A DNA stretch of 29,813 bases, taken from IMG/VR virus record IMGVR_UViG_3300031877_000265, positions 1 to 29,813 of that record. One strand, 5' to 3'. Below are positions 12,764 to 27,966 of this stretch, piece after piece. Below the pieces are notes generated by a model. That model was not told where the DNA came from. It made no database searches and saw nothing but the letters and a program-made list of their open reading frames with translations. The stretch is from a virus. The number at the start of each line of letters is the position of its first letter. Position 1 is the stretch's first letter. The position numbers were made by a program, and so were the translations under genes.

Positions 12764-12982
12764 ATGGAGTTGCCAGGAGCGATGTGGATCGCATTAGTCG
12801 TAGTCCTGACTGAATGGGTCAGGCAGTGGAAGGTGGGCGGTAGGTGGGCGCCACTTATCGTGCTGATCTTAGGCACGGTAGCTAAAGCCATAGAGCTGGC
12901 CATGAAGTGGCCCGAATTAGCGGCGCGGGGGCAAAACATCCCCTTGATCTTCCTATTTGGTCGCGCCACACTGGGTCTTTAG
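12764..12982 (+). CDS. Small membrane protein, holin-like
   Basis: This is a 72-aa protein with a strong ribosome site. Residues ~6-17 are hydrophobic, followed by the charged stretch EWVRQWKVGGRW, then a second hydrophobic helix ~29-45 (APLIVLILGTVAKAIELAM) and a third weaker one near the C-terminus. The size, the two to three short helices and the position right after the tail genes fit a phage holin, which makes holes in the inner membrane at lysis. No family-specific motif is visible, so holin-like rather than holin is the safe name. Confidence 0.6.
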   Translation: MELPGAMWIALVVVLTEWVRQWKVGGRWAPLIVLILGTVAKAIELAMKWPELAARGQNIPLIFLFGRATLGL

Positions 12983-12983
12983 G

Positions 12984-13385
12984 TTGCACTTTTCATGGCG
13001 CCAACTGGCGAGAGATCTCGTGATCCTCCTGATCGGCTTCCTGATCGGCTCGATCTCCAGCGCCCACGCCGTGGATTTGCATGCCCAAGAGCGGCGGGTG
13101 CAGATTATGGATGCGAGAGTTGAGGAGCTGCGGCTGGGCTTGAATGGCCGCATGGAGAAGATCGAGCAATCCTACTTCAGTGATATGTTGCGATTGGCCG
13201 AGTTGGAGGCTGCTGTCTATGGGCCCCGATTCGAGGACCCCTGGCACAGTTTCCCTCCGCCCAATCGCTATCCGCCAGAGAGACGCAAACAAGTGCACGG
13301 GGGCGATCTGGCATATTGCAGATTGGAGGTGATTGCTCCCATCCCAGCTGAGCCCGTTCCCGGCGTGGGGCTGAAAGCATATTAG
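12984..13385 (+). CDS. N-anchored coiled-coil membrane protein (spanin-like topology)
   Basis: A membrane helix (DLVILLIGFLIGSISS) near residues 11-27 is followed by a charged coiled-coil-like region (about residues 30-75) and a Pro-rich tail. The start is uncertain: I prefer TTG 12984, one base after the previous stop, giving 133 aa; TTG 12957 would add 9 residues and overlap the previous gene by 26 nt. Neither has a good ribosome site, so translation is probably coupled. The topology resembles an i-spanin (Rz) or a membrane-bound linker protein. Similarity beyond topology is not visible. Confidence 0.55.
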   Translation: MHFSWRQLARDLVILLIGFLIGSISSAHAVDLHAQERRVQIMDARVEELRLGLNGRMEKIEQSYFSDMLRLAELEAAVYGPRFEDPWHSFPPPNRYPPERRKQVHGGDLAYCRLEVIAPIPAEPVPGVGLKAY

Positions 13386-13401: not shown

Positions 13402-14265
13402 ATGCACATCCTGATCATTGCTCCCGATATTCCACAGTTGGCTGGCGTCGATGAGGAAGTCAGCGCTGTGGCTTCCCTGCACAAGGTGGAGCTCCTGCAC
13501 GGACGGGTAGTTGAAGCTGACATTCGGCACGCCACGGGCCGCTACTTCGACATCGTTTGGTTCATCACTCACGGCAGCTCTGCTGGCCTTATGCTCTCCG
13601 AGGGCGAGACTCTCAGTATTGATGCCGTAGTCCAGTATGTGCGATCAGCCCGGCCCGGGCTCTGCATCCTGAACTCCTGCGAGAGCGTAGACATCGCCAC
13701 CGCTATCTTGGACGCAACTGACATGACCGATGTGATCGCCACGGTCAGCGATGTCCCAGACCGAGATGCGGTCAGGCTAGGCGTGCTCTTCGCCAGGGAA
13801 CTATCGCGCCTCAATGATTACCGGCAGGCATTTGAAGCCTCCAGGCCACGATACAACCGACACTACATATATCTCAGGAACTTTGGGCGGTATCGGAACG
13901 AGGGGCCCGATCCCATCCCCGCATCATCGCTGGATAGCGGACAGAATTACCTAGTCGAGCGCCTCATCCGCCTGACAGACCAGATGCGCTCAAACATTCA
14001 TGAGTGGCAGTCCAGCTCCAACACCCAGCTAGCATTACTGAAGCGCAGCGTGGACGATCTGGAGAGGCAGGGTGCTTCGCAGGCAATCGTCACGGCCGCC
14101 TTGACCCAGGATGTCGCCTTGATTAAAATGCGGCTTGGCATGGACGGACAGCTCCCCCTTGGCCGCCCTAATAATCTGACCCTGGTCTTTGTAGCTGCCA
14201 TCGCTGCCATGATACTGGTGATGGGGCTTGCTCTTTTTGTGGCTATGCAAGGAGGGGTTCGCTAA
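13402..14265 (+). CDS. Membrane-anchored CHAT-domain (caspase-like) protease
   Basis: This 287-aa protein has an N-terminal caspase-like fold. A beta-strand (DIVWFITHGSS) ends at His57-Gly58, and a second (GLCILNSCES) carries Cys93; this is the His-Gly / Cys-Glu-Ser dyad arrangement of CHAT peptidases (clan CD). It is followed by DVIATVSDVPDRDAVRLG and a helix with FARELSRLNDYRQAFEASRP, which match the small-subunit half of CHAT domains. Residues ~180-245 are a helical coiled-coil-like stalk. A strongly hydrophobic helix at ~259-282 anchors the C-terminus, leaving a short GGVR tail. No N-terminal signal is seen, so the protease head probably faces the cytoplasm. CHAT proteases usually act in bacterial immunity or cell death; one inside a phage late operon is unexpected. 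The stop (TAA) abuts the next ATG. Confidence 0.82.
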   Translation: MHILIIAPDIPQLAGVDEEVSAVASLHKVELLHGRVVEADIRHATGRYFDIVWFITHGSSAGLMLSEGETLSIDAVVQYVRSARPGLCILNSCESVDIATAILDATDMTDVIATVSDVPDRDAVRLGVLFARELSRLNDYRQAFEASRPRYNRHYIYLRNFGRYRNEGPDPIPASSLDSGQNYLVERLIRLTDQMRSNIHEWQSSSNTQLALLKRSVDDLERQGASQAIVTAALTQDVALIKMRLGMDGQLPLGRPNNLTLVFVAAIAAMILVMGLALFVAMQGGVR

Positions 14266-14658
14266 ATGCAGCTAAACTTACAACTTCTTGAGAAGGCCAG
14301 CGTAGTTATCGCCTCTTTCACCTATCCCATACTCTTCGTTCTCTTTGGATTCATGCTGCTGCTGGCGGCTCTGGAGAATGAGCCGCGGCTGCGGCAATGG
14401 GAGCGAGCCGGGTTTCACTTCTGTTTGGCCGTAATGTTCGGGGCACTGGGGATAGGGATGTCCCGCGTTCCCTTTCTCACTCTTGAGCAGAGTCGAGTTG
14501 TCTTCCGCTTTCTGAGCTTGGGACTGGCATTCGTTATGGCGAGGCCCATCGCCTTTCACCTCGCGGTCCTCATTAGAAGGACATCGGATGCCTTGAATGG
14601 GGGACAACTTCCCCCAGAAGGTTTTGCCGCTCAACGGGAGGGGACGGTTGAAAGATGA
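14266..14658 (+). CDS. Three-helix membrane protein, 130 aa
   Basis: ATG 14266 directly follows the CHAT gene stop, and AGGAGGGG lies inside the end of that gene. Hydrophobic helices are seen at about residues 12-35, 47-63 and 76-97, followed by a polar tail. No family is recognised. The coupling with the CHAT gene suggests a shared function, for example a membrane partner, a substrate or a second holin. Its start lies in the same frame order as a typical two-gene operon pair. Confidence 0.62.
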   Translation: MQLNLQLLEKASVVIASFTYPILFVLFGFMLLLAALENEPRLRQWERAGFHFCLAVMFGALGIGMSRVPFLTLEQSRVVFRFLSLGLAFVMARPIAFHLAVLIRRTSDALNGGQLPPEGFAAQREGTVER

Positions 14659-14929
14659 GACATTGCTGAGGCAACGCCTGACCGAGGCGCTGGTACGGAA
14701 ACAACAGATCGATGCGCTCATTCAGACCTTGATCTTGGAATCAGCCCGCTTGGGTGCCATCTATTCGGAGCTGTACGCTATCATCAACGATTTGGAGCCG
14801 GAGCCGCTGGAGAGGTTTAATGTCAAGGCGCCATCTGGTCCGGGACGCAGTGCTGACGGCGCTCCTGCTGGCCTTGCTGGCCGCTTGCCAGTTGAGGACG
14901 GCAGAGCCGACGGTCAGCGCGCCGACTGA
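14648..14929 (+). CDS. Short coiled-coil protein overlapping its neighbours
   Basis: TTG 14648 is chosen because GGGAGGGG lies 4-11 nt upstream and it overlaps the previous stop; ATG 14597 would add 17 residues with no ribosome site. Residues 1-55 are a Leu/Ile heptad-like helix (LLRQRLTEALVRKQQIDALI and on), probably a coiled coil. The last ~36 residues are low in structure and overlap the start of the lipoprotein gene by 110 nt in another frame, so this tail may be incidental. It may be a soluble partner of the membrane proteins upstream. Confidence 0.5.
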   Translation: MKDETLLRQRLTEALVRKQQIDALIQTLILESARLGAIYSELYAIINDLEPEPLERFNVKAPSGPGRSADGAPAGLAGRLPVEDGRADGQRAD

Positions 14930-17900
14930 GGCTGCACCAGCCTATCGCAACATAGGTGCGCGCTTCACGGGAGGCGGGGTCCCATCGTTGGGGGATGGGA
15001 CCCTGCTCTACCTGCAATATGACTGGCGCAATACCGACTGGGGCATCCAATACCCAGAGTATGGAGCCATTGGCAGCGGCATCTACTTTGAGTGGTACAG
15101 GGAATGCGAGACGGCAGACTGCCCATCGCCCCAGACTATCCTATTCTTATCCCAGTCAGCTGATTATTGGGTGCAGCTCGACGGCGGGACGTGGATCAAG
15201 CGGCCTGTGGCGCTCTCTCTCTACGTCGCAGGGGATACGCAGGACTACACCCCCTCACGAGTATACGAGAGCGGCGATGTCCCTTATGAGACCATGCCGG
15301 ATGGGTCAAGGGTCGGCTACCGACTAGAGCCAACCAGGGACCCAAGCCAGTCAGCCTTGGGCGATTGCCCTCCGCGGTCAGCGCCTCGCTATGATGATCC
15401 AGACTGGCAGGCAGCCTGGCTGGCTGACCTCCAAACATGGCTGACCAACATTAAGAATGGCTCCTACGCGGATCAGGTCTACGCGATCTGGCTTGGCTTG
15501 GGTGTAGACGGGGAGACCCAGCCGGCCAAGAACTATTCTTCAATGCCCCTCAAGGGATGCTATTACGGTGATGAGCTGGCAAGCCGCATGGGAAGCGATG
15601 GCTGGCAAAGCTACCTCGATTTCGTCGAGCTGTCAATGCAGACGGCCCGCACAAGCTTCCCCAGCCGACCCATCTTCGTGCAGGCGGCAACTGATCCAGG
15701 CGCTTACTGGGGCAGGACCTTGAGGGACGACGTAGTGGTTTATGCTAACAGCATCGGCGTTGGCTACAAGCCCAATGGCCTGACCCCGGACCGGGCCAAT
15801 CTATGGGGTTATGGGACAGCGGAAGGCAAATGGCTGATTGACGTCATGATGCCATACTCGATAACAATGCCCATTGCCTTCGAGCCAGCTTTTGGGCCGG
15901 GCGGCGAGGATGGGAGCCTGACGCCACCTTATCCCTATGGCCCTCCAGGACATGCAAAGTACCTGTGGTGGATGCTGATGCAGGGTCTCTCCCGACGGCC
16001 CGACTTGATGGACCTCCAAGAGGGCTGGTTCCCGATCATCCAAAGCAACTATCCCTGGATGTTCAAATTCATCCGGCGCACCCTGGGCAAACAGCCAACT
16101 GATCTGGACCAGATCTGGACCGTCTTCCGGCAGGCCGAATGCACACCGACCTGGTACAATCCGCCGACCAACACGAACGGCGTCGGCTGTACGCCTGGCC
16201 CCTTCACATTGGGGCTCAGCCCCTCCGTCGTCACAGGCTCCGATTACGTCACGCAGACGGTCTTCTCCGGGAATGTCCTGGCTCAGCCATACTCCCGTCA
16301 CGCTTATAAGCTGGCGGCAGGTCAAGCGATCACGCTGACCGTGGATGCTGATTACCAGTGGTATAATCAGACGCCGGCCGCCAATGGTGGGACGGCAGGG
16401 TTCGTGCTCTCGGTTTTGGCTCTGGACAGCGGCACCGATCTGATGTATCTGGATTACACAGATAACGCGGGCGATGTCTTGACCCTCACGATCACCAAGA
16501 CGAATACAGCCCTACTCAAGTGGCGGGACTTCGCCGTCTCAGGCGCTCGCTGGAATGGGGCCCTCGATGGGGCCGATCTGCGCATCCGCAATGATGGGAC
16601 AGGGACAGAGTACGTCGTGATGGCAGTAATACGCTACTTTTACAGCCCGGGCGGGGTCTGCGCGCAGATCAACGGCTGCGAAGGGATCGAGGGAGGTGCC
16701 CTGAGCGAAGGGAGCGCCGCCACGGCGACGGCCACGCCGACCAGGACCAGGATGCCAACGGCGACGCCGACTTCAATCACCCCCACCTCAACGCCCACGC
16801 CGACGCCGACCGGTCCGACTGCGACCCCCACACCGACATTCACCGGCACGCCGCCGACAGCGACGGCCACGGCCACGCCGGGGCTGGTTGTCTACGAGTT
16901 CATGGCCTACAACGATACGCTGCCAGAGACGATCTACTGGACCAACGTGATCACCTATGTGGGCGTCGGTGGTGGCACTTACTCAATAGTGACAGTGCCG
17001 GGCTACTCTGGCAATGCCTACCGCTATAACATCAACGCCAGCGATAGCTACGGCTGGGTCGGGACCTACTGGGACAGCGGCGCGCTGCAGACGGAAGGCA
17101 TCTTAGATGTGCACGTTTCATTCACCGGGACCCTGCCCTTCGACTTCCTGCCCTCGACCTTTGCCGGGGTGTACGAGGAGATAGCCACGCAGGCCGGCGG
17201 GCAGCTTGGTCAGAGGCAGCAATGGACTTTGGATAGGATGGGGACCAGCCAGGGCGCTATCAGATTGCGTTGCCCGATGTGCATGCCCACTCAAGACTTG
17301 GAGGTAAGATCAAGCACCACTATGGGTGCCTGGTATCATTTCACCGTGCACTGGGAATACAAGGATGGGGGCACTGGCTATATCAGGGTCTATGACGACA
17401 CTAGCCTGAAAGTAGACTGGACGGGGGGCCTGAACAGCTCCTATGATCGTTGGCGCTACGCGATGGCAGGCATCCTGGGCGCTCACTATTTCTGGGACCA
17501 TAACGTTTATCATACTGTAGACGAAGTTGGCGCCTGTACCTCCGATCCCTGCGCTGCTCAGGCTCAGGCAGCCATCTCGCCGCTGGTGATCAACGAGATC
17601 GGGCGCCACGCAGATGAAGATTGGTTCATGGGCGGCGGCGTGACTGAGGACGACGACTTTATTGAGCTCTATAATAGTACCGCGGTCAAGCAGCCTCTCG
17701 CCTCGTATCAGCTGTGTGTCGACGACACCTGTTTTACCTTCGCCAGGGGCGAGTACGTGAACGCTGGCCAGGTAAAGGCTCTCTTCGCAGGCGATACCGG
17801 CCTCTATCTCCCATTGGCAGATGCCGAAATCTGCCTCTATAATTATGCCGGCCGGGTGATCGATTGCGCAACCTGGTCGGCCATGACGACCGGCGCCCGC

Positions 17901-18533
17901 AGCATCGGTCGCTACCCAGATGGCAGCGCCATATGGAGGGAGTTCGTCTGCGTCACCCACGGACGGATCAATACCTATTGGGACTCGGTGACCTGCCCAT
18001 CGGTGCCTTATGTGCCGACGCCGACACCCACCCCCACATTGACGCCAACCGTCACCCCCACCCCTGCTTACACGCAGGAGTTGCTCTCCTCCAGAGATAC
18101 GCATATTCTGAAGGACATCGAGACGCCTGACCCGTACAATATGGAGCTCTATCTCGATCTCGGCCCGGCGCCGGCCTTGCCATACGGTGAGGCCCTAGTC
18201 TGGTTCGTCCTGCCCACGGTCACGCCAGAAAATCTGGAGCGGGCCGAGCTGCTTTTCCAAGTCAAGACGCTCTACATGCCGATGATCTTGAGGATTCACG
18301 GCCTGGGCATTGACGCGGACGACTCGGCGACCTGGAGGTATGCCTCATCTACCGGCACACCCACTCCCTGGGCCACGCCCGGAGCGCAGCCGGATGTGGA
18401 TTACTATGGGACGCCGGTGGCGACCGTCCAAATAGCAAGCACCGGGGCCTATACTGTTGACATCACGTCGCTCGTGCAGGACTGGATCGATGGCAGTAAA
18501 CTGCCAATCATTATCCTCGTGCCAGAGGATTAG
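14820..18533 (+). CDS. Multidomain lipoprotein: glycosidase-like barrel, lectin-like, lamin-tail and DNRLRE-like domains
   Basis: This is a 1237-aa protein. ATG 14820 has GGAGAGG upstream and begins a lipoprotein signal with lipobox L-A-A-Cys23; the in-frame start at 14754 would destroy it. Residues ~35-460 look like a clan GH-A TIM barrel related in style to GH42/DUF4832-type proteins: PRYDDPDWQAAW, then GLGVDGE (Glu232) and MPIAFEPAFG (Glu355), plausible acid/base and nucleophile. A sandwich domain spans ~465-625. A Thr-Pro linker (632-688) leads to a LamG-like domain (689-908), a lamin-tail domain (918-1058, VINEIG and DFIELYNS), another linker, and a DNRLRE-like domain (1084-1237, DDSATWRYASS and PWATPG). 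The protein should sit on the host cell surface and bind or cut glycans. The substrate is not predictable. Confidence 0.75.
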   Translation: MSRRHLVRDAVLTALLLALLAACQLRTAEPTVSAPTEAAPAYRNIGARFTGGGVPSLGDGTLLYLQYDWRNTDWGIQYPEYGAIGSGIYFEWYRECETADCPSPQTILFLSQSADYWVQLDGGTWIKRPVALSLYVAGDTQDYTPSRVYESGDVPYETMPDGSRVGYRLEPTRDPSQSALGDCPPRSAPRYDDPDWQAAWLADLQTWLTNIKNGSYADQVYAIWLGLGVDGETQPAKNYSSMPLKGCYYGDELASRMGSDGWQSYLDFVELSMQTARTSFPSRPIFVQAATDPGAYWGRTLRDDVVVYANSIGVGYKPNGLTPDRANLWGYGTAEGKWLIDVMMPYSITMPIAFEPAFGPGGEDGSLTPPYPYGPPGHAKYLWWMLMQGLSRRPDLMDLQEGWFPIIQSNYPWMFKFIRRTLGKQPTDLDQIWTVFRQAECTPTWYNPPTNTNGVGCTPGPFTLGLSPSVVTGSDYVTQTVFSGNVLAQPYSRHAYKLAAGQAITLTVDADYQWYNQTPAANGGTAGFVLSVLALDSGTDLMYLDYTDNAGDVLTLTITKTNTALLKWRDFAVSGARWNGALDGADLRIRNDGTGTEYVVMAVIRYFYSPGGVCAQINGCEGIEGGALSEGSAATATATPTRTRMPTATPTSITPTSTPTPTPTGPTATPTPTFTGTPPTATATATPGLVVYEFMAYNDTLPETIYWTNVITYVGVGGGTYSIVTVPGYSGNAYRYNINASDSYGWVGTYWDSGALQTEGILDVHVSFTGTLPFDFLPSTFAGVYEEIATQAGGQLGQRQQWTLDRMGTSQGAIRLRCPMCMPTQDLEVRSSTTMGAWYHFTVHWEYKDGGTGYIRVYDDTSLKVDWTGGLNSSYDRWRYAMAGILGAHYFWDHNVYHTVDEVGACTSDPCAAQAQAAISPLVINEIGRHADEDWFMGGGVTEDDDFIELYNSTAVKQPLASYQLCVDDTCFTFARGEYVNAGQVKALFAGDTGLYLPLADAEICLYNYAGRVIDCATWSAMTTGARSIGRYPDGSAIWREFVCVTHGRINTYWDSVTCPSVPYVPTPTPTPTLTPTVTPTPAYTQELLSSRDTHILKDIETPDPYNMELYLDLGPAPALPYGEALVWFVLPTVTPENLERAELLFQVKTLYMPMILRIHGLGIDADDSATWRYASSTGTPTPWATPGAQPDVDYYGTPVATVQIASTGAYTVDITSLVQDWIDGSKLPIIILVPED

Positions 18534-18572
18534 ACCGGCGGAGAGCCGGATATCAAGAAAGGAGAGATTCGC

Positions 18573-18710
18573 ATGGCAAAGGAACCGAAGATCACCATAA
18601 CCTTTGCACTCAAGGACTTCGAGGTCTGGCTTGCTCAAGAGCCAGAGACCTCCTTGAAGCGATTCTTCAGGGAAGTCACCCGACTTACCCAGAGGAACTG
18701 CGCGGCTTAA
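18573..18710 (+). CDS. Tiny 45-aa protein, paralogue A
   Basis: ATG 18573 has a strong site (AAAGGAGAG) and the product begins MAKEPKITITFALKDFEVW. It is clearly related to the 53-aa product encoded 42 nt downstream: both share EPKI-x-ITF, K-x-FE-x-W and a following charged helix. This pairwise similarity and two good ribosome sites argue that both are real genes. A beta-strand followed by an amphipathic helix is likely. The function is unknown; a small DNA-binding or regulatory protein is one possibility. Confidence 0.68.
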   Translation: MAKEPKITITFALKDFEVWLAQEPETSLKRFFREVTRLTQRNCAA

Positions 18711-18752
18711 GGGCAGAACCCACAGCCGGGTGGGGCTAGGAAGGATAGGCCG

Positions 18753-18914
18753 ATGGAACCAAAGATCAAGATCACTTTCACGATCAAGCATTTCGAGGAA
18801 TGGATGAGGGAAGGTGAAGATACGCCACTGCGCCGGCTCGTTCTGGAGCTGATCAAGATGGCTCCAGAAGGGGTACGAGACCTCAAGGCTTCCCCGACGG
18901 TCGGGTGGCACTAA
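18753..18914 (+). CDS. Tiny 53-aa protein, paralogue B
   Basis: The product begins MEPKIKITFTIKHFEEWMRE and continues with PLRRLVLELIKM, aligning with the 45-aa neighbour through its first ~38 residues. Ribosome binding would use the AGGAAGGATAGG stretch. It arose with its neighbour by tandem duplication. There is no membrane segment or recognised family. The two are placed between two large surface-protein genes. Confidence 0.65.
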   Translation: MEPKIKITFTIKHFEEWMREGEDTPLRRLVLELIKMAPEGVRDLKASPTVGWH

Positions 18915-18960
18915 GCCCTGACCCGCGCGGTCCTCACCACTGTAGGGGACGACAGGTATA

Positions 18961-18988
18961 GGGCAGGTTCTATCCACACGGCCTGCCC
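18961..18988. other. Inverted repeat in the leader of the 655-aa protein gene
   Basis: GGGCAGG at 18961-18967 pairs with CCTGCCC at 18982-18988 around a 14-nt loop, in the 100-nt gap before GTG 19015. There is no following T-run. It could be a leader hairpin; evidence is only the symmetry. I see no other feature in this gap. Confidence 0.3.
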
Positions 18989-19014
18989 CGCACTGAAAGT
19001 GGAGGTTGCCAAGC

Positions 19015-20982
19015 GTGAGGAGAAGGGACTGGATCACGCTGACCTTGACGATCATCATAGCCATCATGCTGGCCCTGGCAGCGCGCGCCTTGGCAGGGCC
19101 ATCGCCCCTTGGGGCTGATATCGCCCCCCTGGCCTACAGCAATAATTACTATTGGTCAACGGCAGGAGACTGGGAGGGCTGGATAGGAAGCGGGATTACC
19201 GGCATGATCAGCGGGGGCGGCCCTGAAAATGAGCCCAAGTGTTATGCTAACAACTGTTTGTATGCTCGCAACAACGGGTCATACCTGCAAAGCCCGAACC
19301 AGACCAAGACGGCCGGGTATAACGTCAGGGCTATGATACGCATGGGAAGCGCGGGCAGCCAGATTCGTTACGTTCGCTTTTACACAATGGATGGTGTAGA
19401 GCGATGTGGCTTCTCCACGACAAGCAATGGATTTCAGACGTTCAATTGCAGCGAGGAAAATATACAGGCGGCGATTCAATGGTATTTTCGCTTCTACACC
19501 ACTGGCAGCACCATTGTGACGCTGGACAACGTCACATTGAGTGATGTGGCACCAGCGCCCACCTCTACACCGACGCCCACGAAAACAGCCACTCCTACCA
19601 CAACGCCGACGCCCACCCCTCCTACACCCACTCCGACCCCTACCGTCACGCCTACGTGGACGCCTGGGCCGCCTCTGTACGCGTATGAGCCATTCGATTA
19701 TCCAGGCAGCAATGATGGCGATCCCCTGAACGGGCTGGATGGCGGGACGGGATGGGCGGGGCCCTGGTCGGCGGGAAGTGGTGGTGCAGTCTTGGATGAT
19801 GATCGCGCGCTGGGAGGGGCCAGTGATATATTCACGGCCAAGGGAAGCGATGTCCCTACATCCAGAGGATTTGGCGAGTTTGCTGTCGGCGATTTCTGGA
19901 TGTCGTTCAGGTTTGCCGTTCAAGCCTCGGAGAACTTCTGGCATGGGATCAACATCTATGATGGCGGGTATCTCAGGGCCACCATAGGGGACATGAACTA
20001 CCAAGAGCTTGATGGCATGTCAGTAACAGGGATGAAGGTGGTGATCTCGGGCTGCACTCGCACCACCAACCACACCTTGCTCCTGTACATCCCAATCAGC
20101 CCAACAGGAACCGAGAACCTCTATTTGTGGTGCGATCCAGATGCCGACGACGACGTCAACACCTATGACGCCTCAATATTGAATCAGGAAATGGGGAGCA
20201 TTGACACCATAAAGATCGTGGCCGGATCGGGCGCTCAGAAGGGGTTCTGGGTTGACGACATCCGCATCGCGGACAACTACACATTTGCGCCCCCTGTGAC
20301 CTCGACGCCGACGGCCACACCGACTGGTAACCCAACTTTCACGCCGACCGCCACTCCGACCGTCACGCCAACGACGACGCCAACGACGACGCCGCGCCGA
20401 CTCGTTATTAACAGCTGGGAGGGGACGCCATCGGTTGAGCCAAGGCTCGTCCTTTACATGCACGGTGATACCCCAACTCCGACGGTCACGCCGAGCATTA
20501 CGCCCATCCCAGATTACAGTCAGGCAATGTTGCCGTCGATGGATACTCACATCCTGCGAAACATCGAGACGCCTGATCCTTACAAAAGTGGTCTCTATAT
20601 CGATCTGCCTTTGACACCGCCGATCATACCTGGTTCCAAGGCTCTCATCCGCTTCATATTGCCGACGGTCACGCCGGAGAACCTGGCCCGCGCCGAGCTG
20701 GTCTTCCATGCGCGCAGCGTTTACATGCCAATGAATCTGAGGATTCACGGCGTAGCCAAGGAGTGGGATGAATCGGCAACCTGGAACTATGCTTCGTCCT
20801 TTGATCCAGCCACGCCCTGGGCAACGCCGGGGGCCAAGCCGTATGTGGATTATTACGGGAAGCCCGTCGCTACAGTAAGCGTAGCAGGGTCAGGATTTTA
20901 CACGGCAGACATCACATCTTTAGTGCGTGACTGGATTGCCGGAGTCAAGCAGCCAGCTGTAATCATCGTGCCAGAGTACTGA
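19015..20982 (+). CDS. Exported modular protein with sandwich, LamG-like and DNRLRE-like domains
   Basis: GTG 19015 is chosen because GGAGG lies 9 nt upstream; TTG 19006 touches that site and is not usable. The 655-aa product has a signal peptide with RRR followed by a long hydrophobic core. Domain 1 (~41-178) contains GSYLQSPNQTK and YVRFYTMDGVERC and is shared with two later proteins (24234 and 25241). A Thr-Pro linker (181-219) leads to a LamG-like domain (~220-425, YEPFDYPGS and LNGLDGGTGW). A second linker is followed by LVINSWEGTPS and LVLYMHGDTPT, and a DNRLRE-like domain (~503-655) with DESATWNYAS and PWATPG. It is probably a surface adhesin or glycan-binding protein. No catalytic residues are evident. 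Confidence 0.78.
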   Translation: MRRRDWITLTLTIIIAIMLALAARALAGPSPLGADIAPLAYSNNYYWSTAGDWEGWIGSGITGMISGGGPENEPKCYANNCLYARNNGSYLQSPNQTKTAGYNVRAMIRMGSAGSQIRYVRFYTMDGVERCGFSTTSNGFQTFNCSEENIQAAIQWYFRFYTTGSTIVTLDNVTLSDVAPAPTSTPTPTKTATPTTTPTPTPPTPTPTPTVTPTWTPGPPLYAYEPFDYPGSNDGDPLNGLDGGTGWAGPWSAGSGGAVLDDDRALGGASDIFTAKGSDVPTSRGFGEFAVGDFWMSFRFAVQASENFWHGINIYDGGYLRATIGDMNYQELDGMSVTGMKVVISGCTRTTNHTLLLYIPISPTGTENLYLWCDPDADDDVNTYDASILNQEMGSIDTIKIVAGSGAQKGFWVDDIRIADNYTFAPPVTSTPTATPTGNPTFTPTATPTVTPTTTPTTTPRRLVINSWEGTPSVEPRLVLYMHGDTPTPTVTPSITPIPDYSQAMLPSMDTHILRNIETPDPYKSGLYIDLPLTPPIIPGSKALIRFILPTVTPENLARAELVFHARSVYMPMNLRIHGVAKEWDESATWNYASSFDPATPWATPGAKPYVDYYGKPVATVSVAGSGFYTADITSLVRDWIAGVKQPAVIIVPEY

Positions 20983-21002
20983 ACATGGCCCAAAGGTATC
21001 CC

Positions 21003-21020
21003 CTCGGCCAAGATGCCGAG
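21003..21020. other. Hairpin before the BMP lipoprotein gene
   Basis: CTCGGC at 21003-21008 and GCCGAG at 21015-21020 form a perfect 6-bp stem with a 6-nt loop in the 58-nt gap after the 655-aa gene. TTGAAAG follows, not a T-run, so it is at best a weak terminator. It ends 21 nt upstream of ATG 21041, just before the ribosome site AAGGGAGG. Confidence 0.4.
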
Positions 21021-21040
21021 TTGAAAGAAAGGGAGGCAAA

Positions 21041-22306
21041 ATGTTCGGTCGATTGGTTCGTTTGATCGTGTTGTTCTCACTGTTGGTGGTGGCAAGCTGT
21101 GCGCCGCCGCCCTCACCTGCGGAGACCTATCGAGTTGGCTTCATGTACGCTGATAGCCACCTCGACAAGGGCTGGAATGCCGCTCACTGGCGTGGGATGC
21201 AGAGCCTACGGCAGTTAGGGGAGGTGGTCAGCGAGTCCGACGTAGGCTTTACTGTCAGGGTCCCCATCGGTGACGGCAAAACATTCAAATTACTGGAGGT
21301 GAAAGCAGCTGAAAAGGTCGGCTATGCTGATGCCGACATCGAGCGCGTGCTGCGCTCGCTGATCGAAGGCCGGGCGCCCGTCAACATGGCCTTCGGGACA
21401 TGGTGGGATAGCCAATATGCCTTCGGCAGGCTAGCTGATGAGCGCCCTGACGTGATCTTTGAGCACGCCTCATCGTTCCCTGCCCAAAAGTCGGCGGATC
21501 ACCCGAATCGTAATTTCGCTACCTACATGATCCGCATGGAGCAGGGAAACTGGTGGCTGGGCAAGGTTACAGCTGAGGTTGGCATCCGTGAGATAGGGTT
21601 CGTGGGCACGCAGACGATCCCAGAGGTGGTGCGCGGTATCAACGCCGAGGTTCTAGGTATGCGAAGCGTGACACCGGACGCCACGGCCCACGTTGTCTGG
21701 CTCTACTCCTGGCTGAATGAGACAGCGGAACGGGAGGCCGCGATGGGGTTGCTCGACGTCCGGGTGGCCAAGATGAAGAACATCCTTCCTGAAGATCGTC
21801 CGCCGTATGCCATCCAACAACTGGCCGACACTCCGACCAGCTCGCAAGCCGTCTGTGAGGCGATCCAGGTGGAGCCCTACGATCAACTGAACGTCGTCCC
21901 CATCGGCTATGGCACGAATGTCCTTCCATCGGCCCCCTGCGCCCTGGTTGGCGCCAGCGAGTGGGTCTGGGGCGGCTATGTCAGGGAGCAGGTTATGGCC
22001 GCCCTCGAAGGGCGCTGGCAGCCACATGACTGGTTCGGTGGCATGGTTGAAGGTGCCGTTGTCCTGGCAGGATGGGACAACGTGCCGGACGCCATTCGTT
22101 GGAAGATGAATGCCATGAATACGGTCCCCTTCCGCGGCCCCTTCAAGGTCTGGGGGCACGATTGGGAAGCCACAGTTCCAGCCGGGAAGTGCCTAACTGA
22201 TAATACCCTCTTGCAGATGCAGTTCTACGTCGAGGGGGTAGATCGGGAGTCAGAGCTGCCCACGCTGCCACCGGATGGCTATGTGCTCGAATGGGAGGAC
22301 TGTTAA
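21041..22306 (+). CDS. BMP/PnrA-family nucleoside-binding lipoprotein
   Basis: This 421-aa protein begins with a lipoprotein signal (lipobox V-A-S-Cys20) after the strong site AAGGGAGG. Residues 42-46 are DKGWN, the conserved ligand-loop motif of BMP (basic membrane protein) family binding proteins. The block from residue 118 (FGTWWDSQYAFGRLADERPD) and the later GKVTAEVGIREIGFVGTQ, with IPEVVRGINAEVLGMRSVTP, are the characteristic central motifs. BMP/PnrA proteins bind purine nucleosides and feed ABC importers. No permease or ATPase gene is near, so it may use a host transporter or act as a scavenger. Its stop overlaps the start of a phosphoribosyltransferase gene, supporting a purine-salvage role. 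The family call is strong; the ligand is inferred. Confidence 0.88.
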   Translation: MFGRLVRLIVLFSLLVVASCAPPPSPAETYRVGFMYADSHLDKGWNAAHWRGMQSLRQLGEVVSESDVGFTVRVPIGDGKTFKLLEVKAAEKVGYADADIERVLRSLIEGRAPVNMAFGTWWDSQYAFGRLADERPDVIFEHASSFPAQKSADHPNRNFATYMIRMEQGNWWLGKVTAEVGIREIGFVGTQTIPEVVRGINAEVLGMRSVTPDATAHVVWLYSWLNETAEREAAMGLLDVRVAKMKNILPEDRPPYAIQQLADTPTSSQAVCEAIQVEPYDQLNVVPIGYGTNVLPSAPCALVGASEWVWGGYVREQVMAALEGRWQPHDWFGGMVEGAVVLAGWDNVPDAIRWKMNAMNTVPFRGPFKVWGHDWEATVPAGKCLTDNTLLQMQFYVEGVDRESELPTLPPDGYVLEWEDC

Positions 22307-22929
22307 TGGGAAGCCGCGGTGTGTATGCCGCCCCCCTCATGGGGGGCGGCACAATTGACCTGCCGATGGTCCCCCTTGATCAAGACCTCGGCATAGCATT
22401 GCTCATGGTCAATGACGAGGACTTTGAGCGAGTTGATCGCATCGTGGCGGGCCTCTGCGACCTGGCTTGGCCATTGCGGCCGGAGGCTACACTAGGTATG
22501 CCGGAACAGGGGATATGGCTAGTCCATGCCGTCGCTCGCAAGCTCGGGCTCGCTCGCTCCTTCGTCGTGAGGAAATCACCCAAGCGATGGGAGGGGGACT
22601 CTATCTCAGTCCGCTTCCAGTCCATCACCAAGCGAAGCGAACAGTCCCTCTATGTGCCTAAAAGCTGGGCAGCTTTGCTAAGCGGCAAGCGAGTTATCAT
22701 CGTGGACGACGTTATCAGTTCCGGTGCGACGGTTAAGGCTATGCTGGATGCGGTCGCGCTGTTGAGTGGATGGGCGGCGGAGACGATTGAGGTCACAGGT
22801 ATTGTGGTCGCCTTCACTGAGGGGACCTATTGGCGGGAGACGTTGGGAGAGCGAGCGAAGCTGGTGCACTCGCTTGGCCACCTTCCGCTATTTAGGCCCT
22901 CAGCTTACGAGGCCATGGCTGGCACGTAA
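22306..22929 (+). CDS. Type I phosphoribosyltransferase (adenine PRT-like)
   Basis: This is a 207-aa protein. ATG 22306 overlaps the BMP gene stop by one base and has GGGAGG upstream; ATG 22339 lies in a hairpin and is an alternative. The PRPP-binding motif VIIVDDVISSGAT occupies residues 130-142, with the paired acidic residues Asp134 and Asp135. LGMPEQGIWLVHAVARKLG and VVRKSPKRWEGD match the substrate-loop and flexible-loop region of APRT/PurR-like enzymes, which transfer ribose-5-phosphate from PRPP to a purine base. It acts in the cytoplasm. Together with the nucleoside-binding lipoprotein it suggests purine uptake and salvage; a regulatory PurR-like role cannot be ruled out, although no DNA-binding domain is visible. 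Confidence 0.87.
   Translation: MGSRGVYAAPLMGGGTIDLPMVPLDQDLGIALLMVNDEDFERVDRIVAGLCDLAWPLRPEATLGMPEQGIWLVHAVARKLGLARSFVVRKSPKRWEGDSISVRFQSITKRSEQSLYVPKSWAALLSGKRVIIVDDVISSGATVKAMLDAVALLSGWAAETIEVTGIVVAFTEGTYWRETLGERAKLVHSLGHLPLFRPSAYEAMAGT
22327..22350. other. Perfect GC hairpin at the start of the phosphoribosyltransferase gene
   Basis: GCCGCCCCCC (22327-22336) and GGGGGGCGGC (22341-22350) are exact reverse complements around the loop TCAT, giving a 10-bp all-G/C stem 19 nt after ATG 22306. The in-frame ATG 22339 begins in the loop. In the mRNA this very stable structure could slow ribosomes or control the choice of start. Confidence 0.75.
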
Positions 22930-22946
22930 AGGCCAGAGGAGATGCT

Positions 22947-23126
22947 ATGATGGTGATTACCGCAGATGTAATCTCGGGCGGCCTGACGATCATCGTCATG
23001 GCCGACGGGGTTGAGCTCTTCAGGCTCATTATCTCCCCCCGCGGGAAAGAGTTCCTAGAGGCTCTGGGGGTCAACTGGGGAGTTATCGGAAGGGCCCTGG
23101 CCGCCTTGGGGGTGAACTGGGGCTAG
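22947..23126 (+). CDS. Small 59-aa protein with duplicated ALGVNWG motif
   Basis: ATG 22947 follows GAGGAGATGCT, a good ribosome site 17 nt after the phosphoribosyltransferase stop. The product begins MMVITADVISGG and is hydrophobic up to residue ~30. The motif ALGVNWG occurs twice, near residues 38-44 and at the C-terminal end (53-59), from a short DNA duplication. A membrane or membrane-surface location is possible. I do not recognise the family. Confidence 0.6.
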   Translation: MMVITADVISGGLTIIVMADGVELFRLIISPRGKEFLEALGVNWGVIGRALAALGVNWG

Positions 23127-23143
23127 GCTCCACAGGCTGAAAC

Positions 23144-23183
23144 AGGCCCGGGCGGAGCCGGCCTACGAGCACAGCCCGGGCCT
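23144..23183. other. GC-rich inverted repeat overlapping the 18-bp palindrome
   Basis: AGGCCCGGGC (23144-23153) and GCCCGGGCCT (23174-23183) are perfect reverse complements around a 20-nt loop. The right arm overlaps the left end of the palindrome at 23180-23197, so the two hairpins cannot form at the same time. This could be an attenuator-like switch or a terminator, but no T-run follows. Confidence 0.55.
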
Positions 23184-23197
23184 ATGCTAGCATAGGC
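23180..23197. repeat. 18-bp perfect palindrome, copy 2 (intergenic)
   Basis: GCCTATGCTAGCATAGGC equals its own reverse complement and is identical to the copy at 27620-27637; a degenerate copy lies at 5343-5368. Its right end overlaps AGGCGG, the likely ribosome site of the gene starting at GTG 23205. An RNA hairpin would hide that site, and a dimeric DNA-binding protein could use the dyad. Confidence 0.7.
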
Positions 23198-23204
23198 GGA
23201 CAAT

Positions 23205-23609
23205 GTGAGGAAGAGGACTCTGCTCTTTTCTGTGCTGGTCGTCATTCTAATGGGCATCTTTGCGCAGTGTCAGCTGCGCCCACTGGCTCCGGTGGCAGGC
23301 ACAGTGCTGTCATTCCCAGCGCCACCCCCTGGCGTCATTCATGAGCCTATCCTGCATGTGAAGGCAGTCCAAGTCCAGCAGAAGGCAAGGGTCGAGGCCA
23401 TAGCCGGGAGGAGGATTTTTTATCTTTTCGAGGTAGACCGTCCGGCCTGGCACCTGATCCCCTTGCCCGGCGATCTTGTGGGGCACTGGCAGCAGGGCGA
23501 AACGCCAGCCGTGGAGTTGAGATCATGGCCACCAGGGTCTGTCACCTGGGGGCTGATGGAAGGGCCGGAACAGGAGAGGCCCTGGATTACCTTTGACATA
23601 GGAGATTAA
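23205..23609 (+). CDS. Small exported protein, 134 aa
   Basis: GTG 23205 is used with AGGCGGA 4-5 nt upstream. The N-terminus (RKR followed by a hydrophobic stretch) is a signal peptide or anchor. A Cys at residue 22 follows F-A-Q, which is not a standard lipobox because Gln is at -1, so lipoprotein status is doubtful. The rest is a compact beta-rich region with several Trp and Pro residues (AWHLIPLPGDLVGHWQQGE). No family is recognised. It ends 1 nt before the next ATG, which points to one operon with the following surface proteins. Confidence 0.6.
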   Translation: MRKRTLLFSVLVVILMGIFAQCQLRPLAPVAGTVLSFPAPPPGVIHEPILHVKAVQVQQKARVEAIAGRRIFYLFEVDRPAWHLIPLPGDLVGHWQQGETPAVELRSWPPGSVTWGLMEGPEQERPWITFDIGD

Positions 23610-23610
23610 C

Positions 23611-24237
23611 ATGAAGAAACTAATCTGGCTGGTAGTTTTTGCGGTTGCGGGGCTGACAGCGCTGCTGATGATGCGGCCGGAGGCTGAGGCCGCGCCACAC
23701 TATCAGTCAACTCCGACCCCTACGCCTACGGCTATCTCGACCCCGCTGCCTACGGCTGCGGCGCGGCGGATCAGGTGGGATCAGGACAACACGCGGCCTG
23801 AGTACCAGGTCGTCCTGCGCTTCGGGACGAAGCCAACGGGGACGCTGCTCAACACGACACTTAACTTCTCGGTGACCAACGTCGTGACCCCGCCCATGCA
23901 GGTCGGAGTGTTTGCCGTCACCCCGAAGTGGGTGGGGCCGTGGACTGACTGGTACTCATTCTATCATCACCGGGAGCCTGCTGAGGCATGGACCCTCTGG
24001 GACACAGCAGGCGCTTTAGGTGCCGGGGATACTCCTGCCTCGCCGACCTATACCGTGACTATTTCGGCTATAGGATGGTACACGGCCGATGTCCAGGGCC
24101 TCGTGGCAGGATGGAGCGGGAGCAACACTGACCTGCTCATGAGGACGGTGGCCGCAACCCAGACCCAGGAGATTTCCATTACGACTGAGGCCAGCGCCGC
24201 GGACAAGCCGTACTTGACGATGGACGTGATCCAATGA
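23611..24237 (+). CDS. Exported DNRLRE-like protein, 208 aa
   Basis: ATG 23611 is one base after the preceding stop, with AGGAGA upstream. The signal peptide (KKLIWLVVFAVAGLTALLMM) is followed by a short Thr-Pro linker (~34-50) and a single DNRLRE-like domain. The motifs VGPWTDWYSFYHHREP, GWYTADVQGLVAGW and a DTAG segment match the 336-aa protein encoded next, defining a second subtype of the domain. This is the minimal member of the family. It probably lies outside the membrane, released or weakly attached. Confidence 0.7.
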   Translation: MKKLIWLVVFAVAGLTALLMMRPEAEAAPHYQSTPTPTPTAISTPLPTAAARRIRWDQDNTRPEYQVVLRFGTKPTGTLLNTTLNFSVTNVVTPPMQVGVFAVTPKWVGPWTDWYSFYHHREPAEAWTLWDTAGALGAGDTPASPTYTVTISAIGWYTADVQGLVAGWSGSNTDLLMRTVAATQTQEISITTEASAADKPYLTMDVIQ

Positions 24238-25244
24238 GGCGCTGGCCACCGGCCCTTGGGCCACCGGTAATTGCGAGCCTGGCGGTAGCGCTGGCCCTTG
24301 CCCTCGTGGGCAACGCCGTCTCAGCCCTGCCTTACTCCAATTACTACGACTTCGAGAGTGGGTGGCAGGGGTGGTCTGGCTCTGGCACCACCGGCAGGAC
24401 CGCTGAATCAGGCTGCGCCTCCGGCTACTGTTTGTACGCTGCCGGCAACGGCTCGTACTTGCAGAGCCCCAATCAGACCAAAGGAAGACACTACAACGCG
24501 AAGGCCACCATATATCTGGGGAGTGCAGGAAGCGATACGCGCTATGTGCGCTTCTACACCACGGATGGTGTGCAGCGCTGTAGCTTCTCCACCACCACCA
24601 ACGGTTCCCAGGCGTTCACCTGCGAAGACCCGACCCTTCGCCTGGCCACTGCGTGGTACTTCCGGCTCTATGTCACCACAGGCATCATAGTACGGCTGGA
24701 TAATGTCACCCTGGAGGATGTAGGCCCGATACCTACTCCTACCGCGCAGACGACGCCGCAGTCCACCCCGATGTCGCTGCGGGTGCGCTATGATTCCGTT
24801 GAGGCGTTGCCGATCATGCAAGGGCTGACCCGCTTCGATACCCTCCCGGCGGGGCAACTGGTGGAGGCGACGTTACACTTCAAAGTCACCGGCGTGGTGA
24901 GCCCGCCGATTAAGCTGGGGGTGTTCGGGGCCAGGCCGATGTGGGTAGGACCATATGTGGATTGGCAGAGTTTCTACCACCACGTCCCTACGCCGGAGTC
25001 TTGGACGCTGTGGGAAACGCCAGGTGCCCGGGGTCCCACTTACGACGTAATCGAGCCAGCGACTTACACCGTCACGGTGTCAGCGACAGGGTGGTACACA
25101 GCGAGTGTCCAAGGATTGGCCTCGGGGTGGCAGGACTACAACACTGGCCTCGTCCTCCGGGTGGTCGACCCGGCGGGGACGCAGGAGGCCACCATCTCAC
25201 TTGGGGCGGACAGCCCTTACATCACCGCCGGAGTTATCCCGTGA
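24234..25244 (+). CDS. Exported two-domain protein with sandwich and DNRLRE-like domains, 336 aa
   Basis: The ATG overlaps the previous stop (ATGA), so translation is probably coupled. After a signal peptide, residues ~33-165 form the sandwich domain also seen in the 655-aa protein: GSYLQSPNQTKGRHY and RYVRFYTTDGVQRCSFS. A short linker (PTPTAQTTPQSTP) leads to a DNRLRE-like domain of the 208-aa subtype: VGPYVDWQSFYHHVP and GWYTASVQGLASGW. It thus combines parts of two neighbours, as expected from domain shuffling by recombination within the array. Confidence 0.74.
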   Translation: MRRWPPALGPPVIASLAVALALALVGNAVSALPYSNYYDFESGWQGWSGSGTTGRTAESGCASGYCLYAAGNGSYLQSPNQTKGRHYNAKATIYLGSAGSDTRYVRFYTTDGVQRCSFSTTTNGSQAFTCEDPTLRLATAWYFRLYVTTGIIVRLDNVTLEDVGPIPTPTAQTTPQSTPMSLRVRYDSVEALPIMQGLTRFDTLPAGQLVEATLHFKVTGVVSPPIKLGVFGARPMWVGPYVDWQSFYHHVPTPESWTLWETPGARGPTYDVIEPATYTVTVSATGWYTASVQGLASGWQDYNTGLVLRVVDPAGTQEATISLGADSPYITAGVIP

Positions 25245-27955
25245 TCAAACGCTGGCTAATCCTGGCAGCAGCCGTCCTGGTAGCCAGCACAGTGGCAGTG
25301 CTGGCCTATTCGACCACTTACTATTTCACGTCCGGGTGGGATGGCTGGACGATCTTGTCAGGATCGCCGGAGTGGGTCACCTCTGGCTGTTACAGCGGCG
25401 GCTGCATCTTCATGGGATCATCGGGGCAGGCCGTCCGCAGCCCAACCGTCTCCAAGGACAGCGGCAGCACGGCCAAAGCGACGATCTGGTTCAGCGCTGC
25501 TGTCAGCCGCAATGTCTACTTCCACACGGGCGACGGGACGCAGAGGTGCAGCTTCAGCAACTCGTCCAGCGGCTTCCAGACCTTTGAATGTACTGAGTCC
25601 AACATGGTGAGTGCGACTTCGTGGTACCTGCGCATTGTGCATGGCAGTGCCCTGGACAGCCGGTTCGACAACGTGACCCTGGAAGATATTCCTCCGACGG
25701 CAACTCCTACGCCTACGCCTACCAGCACGCCCACGGCAACGCCAACAGCCACGGCAACCCCTTACTACGTGACGCGTGTGATCACCGATGCGGCAAACAT
25801 GCTTTACAACACGCCTACACCCTCCAAGCTCAACCAAGAAGTAAGTTCGTGGGTGGGAACTTGGACTCAGGTATTCGGCTGCGGGACCTGTTACCAGGCC
25901 GACTTCCGCTACCCAGTTTACCCGGACGAGGAGGAGCGGTGGGCCGATTTCTCTTTCGAGGGGGCAGGGATCAAGGTCTACGCCAGGGTGGGGCCGATAG
26001 GAGAGACCTTCGACATCTACCTGGATGGCTCCTACCGCGATACGGTGGACCTCTTCTATCCCAGCTACTTGGGGGACAGGTTGGTCTGGGACAGTGGCGA
26101 TGTGGGCCTGGACGTTCACCTGATCAGGATCATACCAACCGCGGGCATGACCGAAGTGTGGCTGGATGCCTACGAGATAGAATATTACGACGCGACTGTG
26201 ACCCTGACAGCGACACCGACCCGTACGCATACGCCGACGGTAACGCCGACATCAACACCGACTTATACGCCGACGAGTACGCCATTCGCCGCAACGCAGG
26301 TGGCTGGAGAATCGGGAGGGGTAGTTTACGCGACCATTACGCCAACACCGACCGGGCCAACCCCGACACCGACACCGACAGCAACCCCCACAGCGACGGC
26401 CTTCCAAGCGACTCAGGTGGCTGGGGAGTCGGGCGGAGTGGTCTATGCAACGTTGACCCCGACACCAACGCCGACATCCACGCCGACGCCGACGAACACG
26501 AACACCCCCTTCGCGGCAACCCGCGTCGCTGCCGAATCAGGGGGAATGTGGTATCAGTCACCCACTCCCACTTTCACGCCGATGTTGATTCAGACGCCGA
26601 CCCCGACGCCGACCTCTACACCGTTCGCGGCGACGCAGGTGGCCGGCGAATCAGGCGGGCTGGAGTATGTGACGATCACGCCAACATGGACCCCGACCCT
26701 GACCCCCACGCCGCTATCATACACCCCAACCCCTATGACCAGGATCGCTGAGGAGTCAGGCGGTATAGCTTACGCCACGCCAACTGACACGCCGACGCCG
26801 AGCGACACAGCGACCCCCACCGTGTCACCTACTCCAACGGCGACCCCGGTTAGCGCGCCACTGAACGTGGCGTGGTGTGTCTCCAGCTCAGTGACGCAGC
26901 CGTGGACTTGTGTCTACGCCTTCGATGAGAACTCGGAAACCTCGTGGGTTGCTGCCACTGGGCTCAATGGCGAATGGCTCACGCTGGATCTAGGGAACCC
27001 TGAAGGGGCTAACGCGGTGCGGCTGGATGGCCTCTACTCGGTCCTGTCGTACTGGAAGCTCCAAGGGTCGAATGATGGTGTTTGGTACATGAATGTGGCA
27101 ACTCACTACGCCCCCGGCTTGTGGTTCTTCTACCGGAGGACATACAGGTATTGGCGGGTCTATAACGTCTCCGACCTGCCCAGTGGCACATTCCAGGTAG
27201 TGCAGATGTACCTGTACGACGGGGTGCTGGAGCCGACACCCACGCCTACGTGGACGCATACCCCCACGCCGACGGAGACACCCACACCGACGTCAACGGT
27301 GACAGAGACCCCGACAGTAACGCTAACGCCAACGATCACGCCAACTCCCACAGCAACTCCAACTCCAACCCCGACGGAGATACCGACGGAGACGCCTAAG
27401 GCTGGTCGGCTCATCATCAACAGCCTGGAGGGAACGCCGACTCAGATGCCGCTGGTTATGCTGTACCTGTACGGTGACACGCCGACGGTGACCACGACAC
27501 CCACAGCCACGCCGACCGGGCCAACCGCTACCCCGATCCAAGGAGAGGTGGATACCCACGTCGCGTACTTGGTTGAAACGCCGCAACCAGATGCGACATG
27601 GCTCACAATATCGAGACGCGCCTATGCTAGCATAGGCTCTGAGACTTTGGTCTACTTCACTGTGCCGGTGACAGCGACGAAGGCGCGCCTGAGCTTCTAT
27701 GTGGGCGCGCTCTACCGGGAACCTGTTGCGCTTAAGGTGGGGAGAATGCTGGTAGATTGGGACGAATCTGCTACCTGGAGCTATGCCAGCACAGTGTCCA
27801 CGCCGACGCCCTGGGCGACGCCAGGGCTTCTCTCCGGGACGGACTATCTGATGCCGACGCCCGCGCCAACCGTGCCTGTCTTTGAGACGGGGTGGTATAC
27901 CGTAAGCCTGGACTCGCTTTTGCCGATCACCTATGGGGTGATCATCAAGCCGTAG
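25241..27955 (+). CDS. Exported modular protein with repeat array, F5/8C and DNRLRE-like domains, 904 aa
   Basis: GTG 25241 overlaps the previous stop (GTGA) and starts a signal peptide; an open frame continues upstream to 24941 but lies inside the previous gene. The order is: sandwich domain of the shared type (~22-150); Thr-Pro linker; a sugar-binding-like sandwich (~175-318, WADFSFEGAGIKVYARVGP); a Thr-Pro array with five ESGG units (~348-520); an F5/8 type C (discoidin-like) domain (~540-661, AFDENSETSW, EWLTLDLG and KLQGSNDGVW); a linker; LIINSLEGTPT; and a DNRLRE-like domain (~768-904, DESATWSYAS, PWATPG). It is likely a cell-surface, glycan-binding adhesin. Its gene contains copy 3 of the 18-bp palindrome. 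Confidence 0.78.
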   Translation: MIKRWLILAAAVLVASTVAVLAYSTTYYFTSGWDGWTILSGSPEWVTSGCYSGGCIFMGSSGQAVRSPTVSKDSGSTAKATIWFSAAVSRNVYFHTGDGTQRCSFSNSSSGFQTFECTESNMVSATSWYLRIVHGSALDSRFDNVTLEDIPPTATPTPTPTSTPTATPTATATPYYVTRVITDAANMLYNTPTPSKLNQEVSSWVGTWTQVFGCGTCYQADFRYPVYPDEEERWADFSFEGAGIKVYARVGPIGETFDIYLDGSYRDTVDLFYPSYLGDRLVWDSGDVGLDVHLIRIIPTAGMTEVWLDAYEIEYYDATVTLTATPTRTHTPTVTPTSTPTYTPTSTPFAATQVAGESGGVVYATITPTPTGPTPTPTPTATPTATAFQATQVAGESGGVVYATLTPTPTPTSTPTPTNTNTPFAATRVAAESGGMWYQSPTPTFTPMLIQTPTPTPTSTPFAATQVAGESGGLEYVTITPTWTPTLTPTPLSYTPTPMTRIAEESGGIAYATPTDTPTPSDTATPTVSPTPTATPVSAPLNVAWCVSSSVTQPWTCVYAFDENSETSWVAATGLNGEWLTLDLGNPEGANAVRLDGLYSVLSYWKLQGSNDGVWYMNVATHYAPGLWFFYRRTYRYWRVYNVSDLPSGTFQVVQMYLYDGVLEPTPTPTWTHTPTPTETPTPTSTVTETPTVTLTPTITPTPTATPTPTPTEIPTETPKAGRLIINSLEGTPTQMPLVMLYLYGDTPTVTTTPTATPTGPTATPIQGEVDTHVAYLVETPQPDATWLTISRRAYASIGSETLVYFTVPVTATKARLSFYVGALYREPVALKVGRMLVDWDESATWSYASTVSTPTPWATPGLLSGTDYLMPTPAPTVPVFETGWYTVSLDSLLPITYGVIIKP
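26285..26775 (+). repeat. Five ESGG repeats in a Thr-Pro linker
   Basis: Units with consensus (F)AATQVAGESGGVxYAT, each followed by a Thr-Pro stretch, start near 26285, 26402, 26510, 26627 and 26732. Each spans about 35-39 codons. The 4th matches the 1st closely, and the 3rd and 5th have changed most (ATRVAAESGGMWY, MTRIAEESGGIAY). The short motif between linkers may be a small binding or crosslinking element on an extended stalk. Confidence 0.8.
27620..27637. repeat. 18-bp perfect palindrome, copy 3 (inside a gene)
   Basis: The same GCCTATGCTAGCATAGGC as at 23180-23197, here read as codons for A-Y-A-S-I-G in the last domain of the 904-aa protein. Its presence in coding sequence argues against a function limited to promoters or untranslated regions, and suits an iterated palindrome or a site bound on DNA. 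Confidence 0.7.
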
Positions 27956-27966
27956 GTGGAAGCCAG

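Follow-up and report, generated by a model that had tools for sequence, protein, structure and literature searches.

The 287-amino-acid protein encoded at positions 13402 to 14265 of the window, by which we mean the whole 29,813-nucleotide stretch of viral DNA analyzed here, is almost certainly a CHAT-fold protein and very probably an active protease. It belongs to a phage family whose members are minimal, tail anchored, and distinct from the cellular TPR-CHAT proteins. Among the lysis, superinfection exclusion, and counter-defense roles that had been put forward for it, comparative context favors a putative role on the lysis side, because small membrane genes follow it immediately and, in several deep branches of the family, holin or endolysin genes are close by; host lysis could well be its main role, a proposal that we hold tentatively.

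The open reading frame begins with ATG, lies within a run of late genes on the same strand, and comprises the following parts:

13402-14265 (+), CHAT-coiled coil-TM protein of 287 aa (P0001), from the ORF, the Pfam CHAT match, the model and Foldseek, and a 22-member alignment
13405-13881 (+), CHAT (caspase-like) domain, residues 2-160, from predicted secondary structure and pLDDT
13570-13572 (+), codon of His57, predicted to be catalytic; invariant in 22/22 aligned members and aligned with the His-Gly of SAVED-CHAT 8tl0
13678-13680 (+), codon of Cys93, predicted to be catalytic; invariant in 22/22 aligned members and aligned with the Asn-Ala-Cys of SAVED-CHAT 8tl0
13924-14133 (+), helical coiled-coil stalk, residues 175-244, from the model
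14173-14259 (+), C-terminal helix, residues 258-286, with a hydrophobic core (residues 262-280) as tail anchor, from the model and a Kyte-Doolittle peak of 2.91

The sequence-only reading had described a caspase-like CHAT domain with His57-Gly and Cys93-Glu-Ser, followed by a coiled-coil stalk and a membrane anchor, and this architecture was upheld. The residues occupy those positions, in the stretches ...DIVWFITHGSSAG... (His57-Gly58) and ...CILNSCESVD... (Cys93-Glu94-Ser95), and PF12770 (CHAT, Pfam) matched residues 11-136 with an E value of 8.2e-8 and a score of 32.5 bits, above the curated cutoff of 24. The AlphaFold2 model, which was built from an alignment including 13 family members, had a mean pLDDT of 80.7 and values of at least 90 across residues 1-140. 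It shows the caspase order, with a strand (51-55) leading to His57 and a second strand (87-91) leading to Cys93, and a small-subunit half that consists of a strand (110-114), two helices (120-136 and 140-147), and a further strand (155-158); beyond the CHAT domain, a long helix (175-244) is followed by the C-terminal helix (258-286).

Comparison of the predicted structure with known CHAT and caspase folds had been suggested as a check, and a model without the caspase fold would have spoken against the assignment; instead, the caspase fold was predicted, and the first Foldseek match in the PDB was SAVED-CHAT 8tl0 (E 1.1e-9), with caspase-7 (1.7e-4), CED-3 (3e-4), and separase (3e-3) among the further matches. 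The family sequence profile likewise had 8tl0 as its best PDB match (E 3.2e-7), in an alignment that pairs up both active-site motifs. A phmmer search of the PDB with the single window protein gave chance matches only and was set aside, and Csx29 was absent among the matches listed in the PDB searches with the window model and the family profile. In the window protein there is no TPR region before the CHAT domain, which starts at residue 2 in the model, and no Pfam TPR match; neither was there a Pfam match to a SAVED domain, for which the model leaves no space N-terminal to CHAT. No family among the PADLOC anti-phage defense models matched the protein at an E value of 1 or below.

When the window protein was used as the sole query, no relatives were found in phages, plasmids, PHROGs, PADLOC, viral contigs, or genome contigs. 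The first relatives were obtained from IMG/VR with a degenerate DNA pattern encoding WF..HG...N[SA]C, which returned 17 loci (5 true relatives and 12 chance matches); alignment-based rescans raised the number of relatives to 12 and then to 24 viral contigs, some of them near-identical, and an additional scan yielded no new ones. Since these pattern scans demand near-exact motifs, the family is probably larger than observed. A 257-Gb genome collection contributed one relative (L031, from an Azonexus MAG); because its contig also has capsid and Mu-F genes, this must be either a prophage or a stray phage contig. No match was found in 50,697 GenBank phage records for five members from different subfamilies, the window protein included, and searches with the neighboring genes of the window revealed no related phage among the viral contigs. 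The Chloroflexota host suggested for this phage is putative. No description of a phage-encoded tail-anchored CHAT protein was found in the literature, within a coverage that excludes most subscription journals and preprints.

The 22 aligned sequences are 27 to 38% identical to the window protein, and all 13 members scanned matched Pfam CHAT (E ≤ 0.1; best, 1.9e-9). W53, H57, N91, C93, and S95 are invariant in these 22 divergent members, although conservation within the scanned motifs (WF..HG and LN[TS]C.S) partly reflects how the relatives were retrieved; members retained by one motif alone still have the other catalytic residue. Homologues lacking the His and Cys, which had been named in advance as evidence against the assignment, did not occur. 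In four members (L032, L033, L035, and L043), the Gly that follows the catalytic His is replaced by Ala, Thr, Ser, or Met, and the Cys motif is intact. A hydrophobic segment is present in the C-terminal region of 22 of 23 members, and some have two. Nine pairs gave dN/dS values of 0.07 to 0.20, which is purifying selection on the family. Because five residues, among them the catalytic pair, are invariant in 22 divergent relatives and dN/dS is this low, the observation goes beyond chance.

The CHAT gene of the window is flanked by the small genes listed below; gene calls at this and the other loci are ORFs judged by eye and simple rules, without a trained gene finder:

12764-12982 (+), 72-aa holin-like membrane protein, two genes upstream of CHAT; phrog_1299 holin, E 0.0012
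12957-13385 (+), product of at most 142 aa, counted from an uncertain TTG start, in which a hydrophobic segment at the N terminus precedes a charged helical stretch; no matching family
14266-14658 (+), protein of 130 aa predicted to have three TM helices, a positional partner whose first base immediately follows the CHAT stop; no family match
14597-14929 (+), ORF of 110 aa that overlaps the 3' end of the three-TM gene, its cassette membership uncertain; no family match

The same-strand late genes and the phrog_1299 match upstream agree with the description of this region as a phage late gene cluster with holin-like neighbors. The N-terminal hydrophobic segment and charged helical region of the 12957-13385 product are reminiscent of an inner spanin. 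The gene order of the window is resembled by that of L032, in which a membrane protein directly upstream of CHAT is weakly similar to the 72-aa holin-like protein (E 2e-4 in a single comparison) and a 91-aa three-TM protein follows; three-TM proteins are also found downstream of CHAT in L033 and L034. Across the family, 11 of 21 loci have a small TM ORF whose start lies between -30 and +45 nt relative to the CHAT stop, compared with 13 of 157 ORFs used as controls (P = 4e-6); a stricter count, from which two dubious loci were removed, left 9 loci against the same controls (P = 1.5e-4). The controls come from the same loci, some of which are close kin and not independent, so both P values are optimistic. 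A MazG-like protein downstream in L037 and L042, which the hydropathy rule had counted as TM, was dropped from the stricter count.

These downstream proteins are of more than one kind. The three-TM proteins of L032 and L033 are homologous (55%), and a scan with this pair found those two contigs only; homology of the 130-aa window protein to its L032, L033, and L034 analogues was not supported in comparisons, and the idea of a single three-TM family across subfamilies was abandoned. Directly after CHAT in L023 (10823-11332) and L026 (7860-8372) are homologous proteins of 169 and 170 aa (35% identity over 117 aa), another kind of partner with one TM segment and a probable outside domain. In L025 and L027, which belong to the head-module clade described below, an ORF of 76 aa that contains two hydrophobic segments (10827 onward) overlaps the 3' end of CHAT; a PHROG search with this ORF gave nothing better than an E value of 0.088.

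From 14754 to 29813, the window encodes a series of large secreted proteins, apparently paralogous, that have Thr-Pro-rich (TPTPTP) linkers and share a repeated module at the C terminus (for example, ...DTHILRDIETPDPYN...). Three of them were scanned without a Pfam match, and the product of 14754-18533 had a weak lamin-tail match only. Within this region, 21041-22929 encodes a PnrA/Bmp-like lipoprotein (E 2.2e-10) and, after it, a phosphoribosyltransferase (E 2.6e-9); distant relatives of the lipoprotein occur in eight phage records from the human gut that lack annotation.

Four lysis family models were searched against 19 records; 12 of the 19 had no match, and proximity was judged in the remaining seven (six independent). 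Holin_LLH is encoded directly upstream of CHAT, with overlapping codons, in L030 and at a distance of 1.6 kb in L043; M23 endolysins are found 2 to 3 kb downstream in L023 and L026 (M23 plus SLT in the latter); and a cell wall hydrolase is located next but one, 0.6 kb downstream, in L037/L042 and at a distance of 3.4 kb in L003. The combined P value for proximity of CHAT and lysis genes within contigs was 0.013 (six independent records), and the lysis-side members are spread over deep branches of the family tree. However, proximity to lysis genes is common among late genes in any case, and this counts against the lysis reading, as does the lack of a single homologous family among the partner membrane proteins. 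Furthermore, eight members located between capsid/connector and tail genes form one clade in the tree, and in L024, L027, L028, L031, L039, and their close kin the CHAT gene is among head-tail genes, not lysis genes. In the window itself, PHROG and the four lysis-family searches gave the weak holin match and no recognized endolysin. The earlier suggestion that the protein could be a lysis trigger is upheld in part: the small membrane genes that follow CHAT agree with it, as do the holins or endolysins encoded nearby in several deep branches, but the head-module clade does not.

The frequent placement of relatives beside small membrane or lysis genes suggests that some phages may lyse their host with the aid of a protease drawn from the bacterial cell-death machinery. 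We propose, as a plausible reading that falls short of probable, that the window protein is a phage-specific, tail-anchored CHAT cysteine protease that is made late, together with small membrane proteins, and processes membrane lysis proteins. Because there is no signal peptide and the anchor is at the extreme C terminus, the topology would be that of a tail-anchored protein with its protease domain facing the cytoplasm. It can be imagined that the coiled coil lets the protein cluster in the membrane and that activation follows either from its build-up to a sufficient level in the late phase of infection or from the sensing of a change in the membrane. The activated protease would then cleave a co-encoded holin- or antiholin-like membrane protein, or itself, and this cleavage would set or trigger lysis. 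A clustering-activated protease of lysis membrane proteins is the simplest model, given the late-operon position and the membrane partners. The narrower scheme, in which the tail-anchored caspase-like protease triggers or times lysis through cleavage of a small membrane protein encoded alongside it, is possible but doubtful; by analogy, and with the same reserve, it would be the viral counterpart of killing by a caspase or CHAT protease and gasdermin, with the holin-like protein in the place of gasdermin.

One alternative explanation is superinfection exclusion or phage-borne abortive defense, in which an anchored sensor protease, triggered by a second phage, kills the cell or blocks the newcomer, much as cellular CHAT effectors do, except that here the resident phage would supply it. 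Known prokaryotic CHAT proteases (Csx29 and SAVED-CHAT) act in antiviral immunity, at least two members (L030 and L032) are in integrase-bearing phages, and one clade has its gene within the head module, where accessory genes sometimes insert. However, there is no sensor domain apart from the coiled coil and anchor and no PADLOC match, the spacing with the late genes is tight or overlapping, unlike that of a stand-alone gene, and lysis neighbors recur in several clades; we consider this explanation somewhat unlikely. Counter-defense genes are usually early, but the CHAT gene is among late and structural genes, and cleavage of a host defense protein at the membrane would leave the conserved anchor and membrane partner genes unexplained; we consider a counter-defense role unlikely, even though the protease is phage encoded and cellular CHAT and gasdermin-type systems are plausible targets (PMC9729208).

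An assembly or virion protease, for example one that processes head or tail proteins at the membrane, would suit the clade whose gene lies between capsid/connector and head-closure/HK97-gp10 genes. It is distinctly unlikely in view of the membrane anchor and the location of most clades elsewhere, and for L028 a role in head maturation was rejected because that phage encodes its own S77 prohead protease (E 4.7e-12). Finally, a catalytically dead, CHAT-fold membrane scaffold that merely binds is very unlikely: the Gly after the His varies in four members, but neither His57 nor Cys93 changes in any of 22.

In bacteria, CHAT proteases are known to carry out immune responses. The presence of a compact, membrane-anchored CHAT protein with an intact active site in many diverse uncultivated phages would mean that phages turn an immunity device to their own ends. 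If the lysis role proposed here is true, then a proteolytic switch would be added to the holin-endolysin picture, and phage lysis would be linked to protease-gated cell death.

Among known systems, the closest is the SAVED-CHAT protease (8tl0), the best PDB match by both structure and sequence profile, which shares the CHAT caspase fold; unlike it, a cellular enzyme activated by cyclic nucleotides via its SAVED domain, the window protein lacks a SAVED domain and carries a coiled coil and TM helix at its C-terminal end. The CHAT fold and His-Cys dyad are also shared with the TPR-CHAT protein Csx29 of Craspase, in which the dyad is H585/C627 (PMC9729208), but the window protein has neither a TPR region nor a gRAMP partner and is membrane anchored and phage encoded. 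In 200 bacterial genomes related to the Azonexus MAG, the family profile found, beyond the phage gene itself, weak matches only (best E 8e-8); nearly all of these cellular CHAT proteins lie within frames of 770 to 1,219 aa, whereas the phage members are 219 to 303 aa long and score E 3e-70 or better. Two viral BFVD proteins, unnamed or uncharacterized, have a similar predicted fold (A0A1P8DJ94, E 2.7e-13; A0A8S5MXG5 of Myoviridae sp. ctWaE18, E 9.8e-6), and phage genes of similar fold may therefore sit uncommented in databases. A0A8S5MXG5 is merely 9% identical to the window protein and perhaps represents a second phage caspase family. LypABC, which the Caulobacter gene transfer agent needs for lysis (PMC13236601), differs in being a chromosomal, three-component, CARD-NLR-like system, and the word CHAT does not appear in that report. 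It nevertheless uses immunity-type peptidases to lyse the producer of phage-like particles and, by analogy, may be regarded as a precedent in kind: an immunity-type peptidase system serving as the lysis device of a phage-like element.
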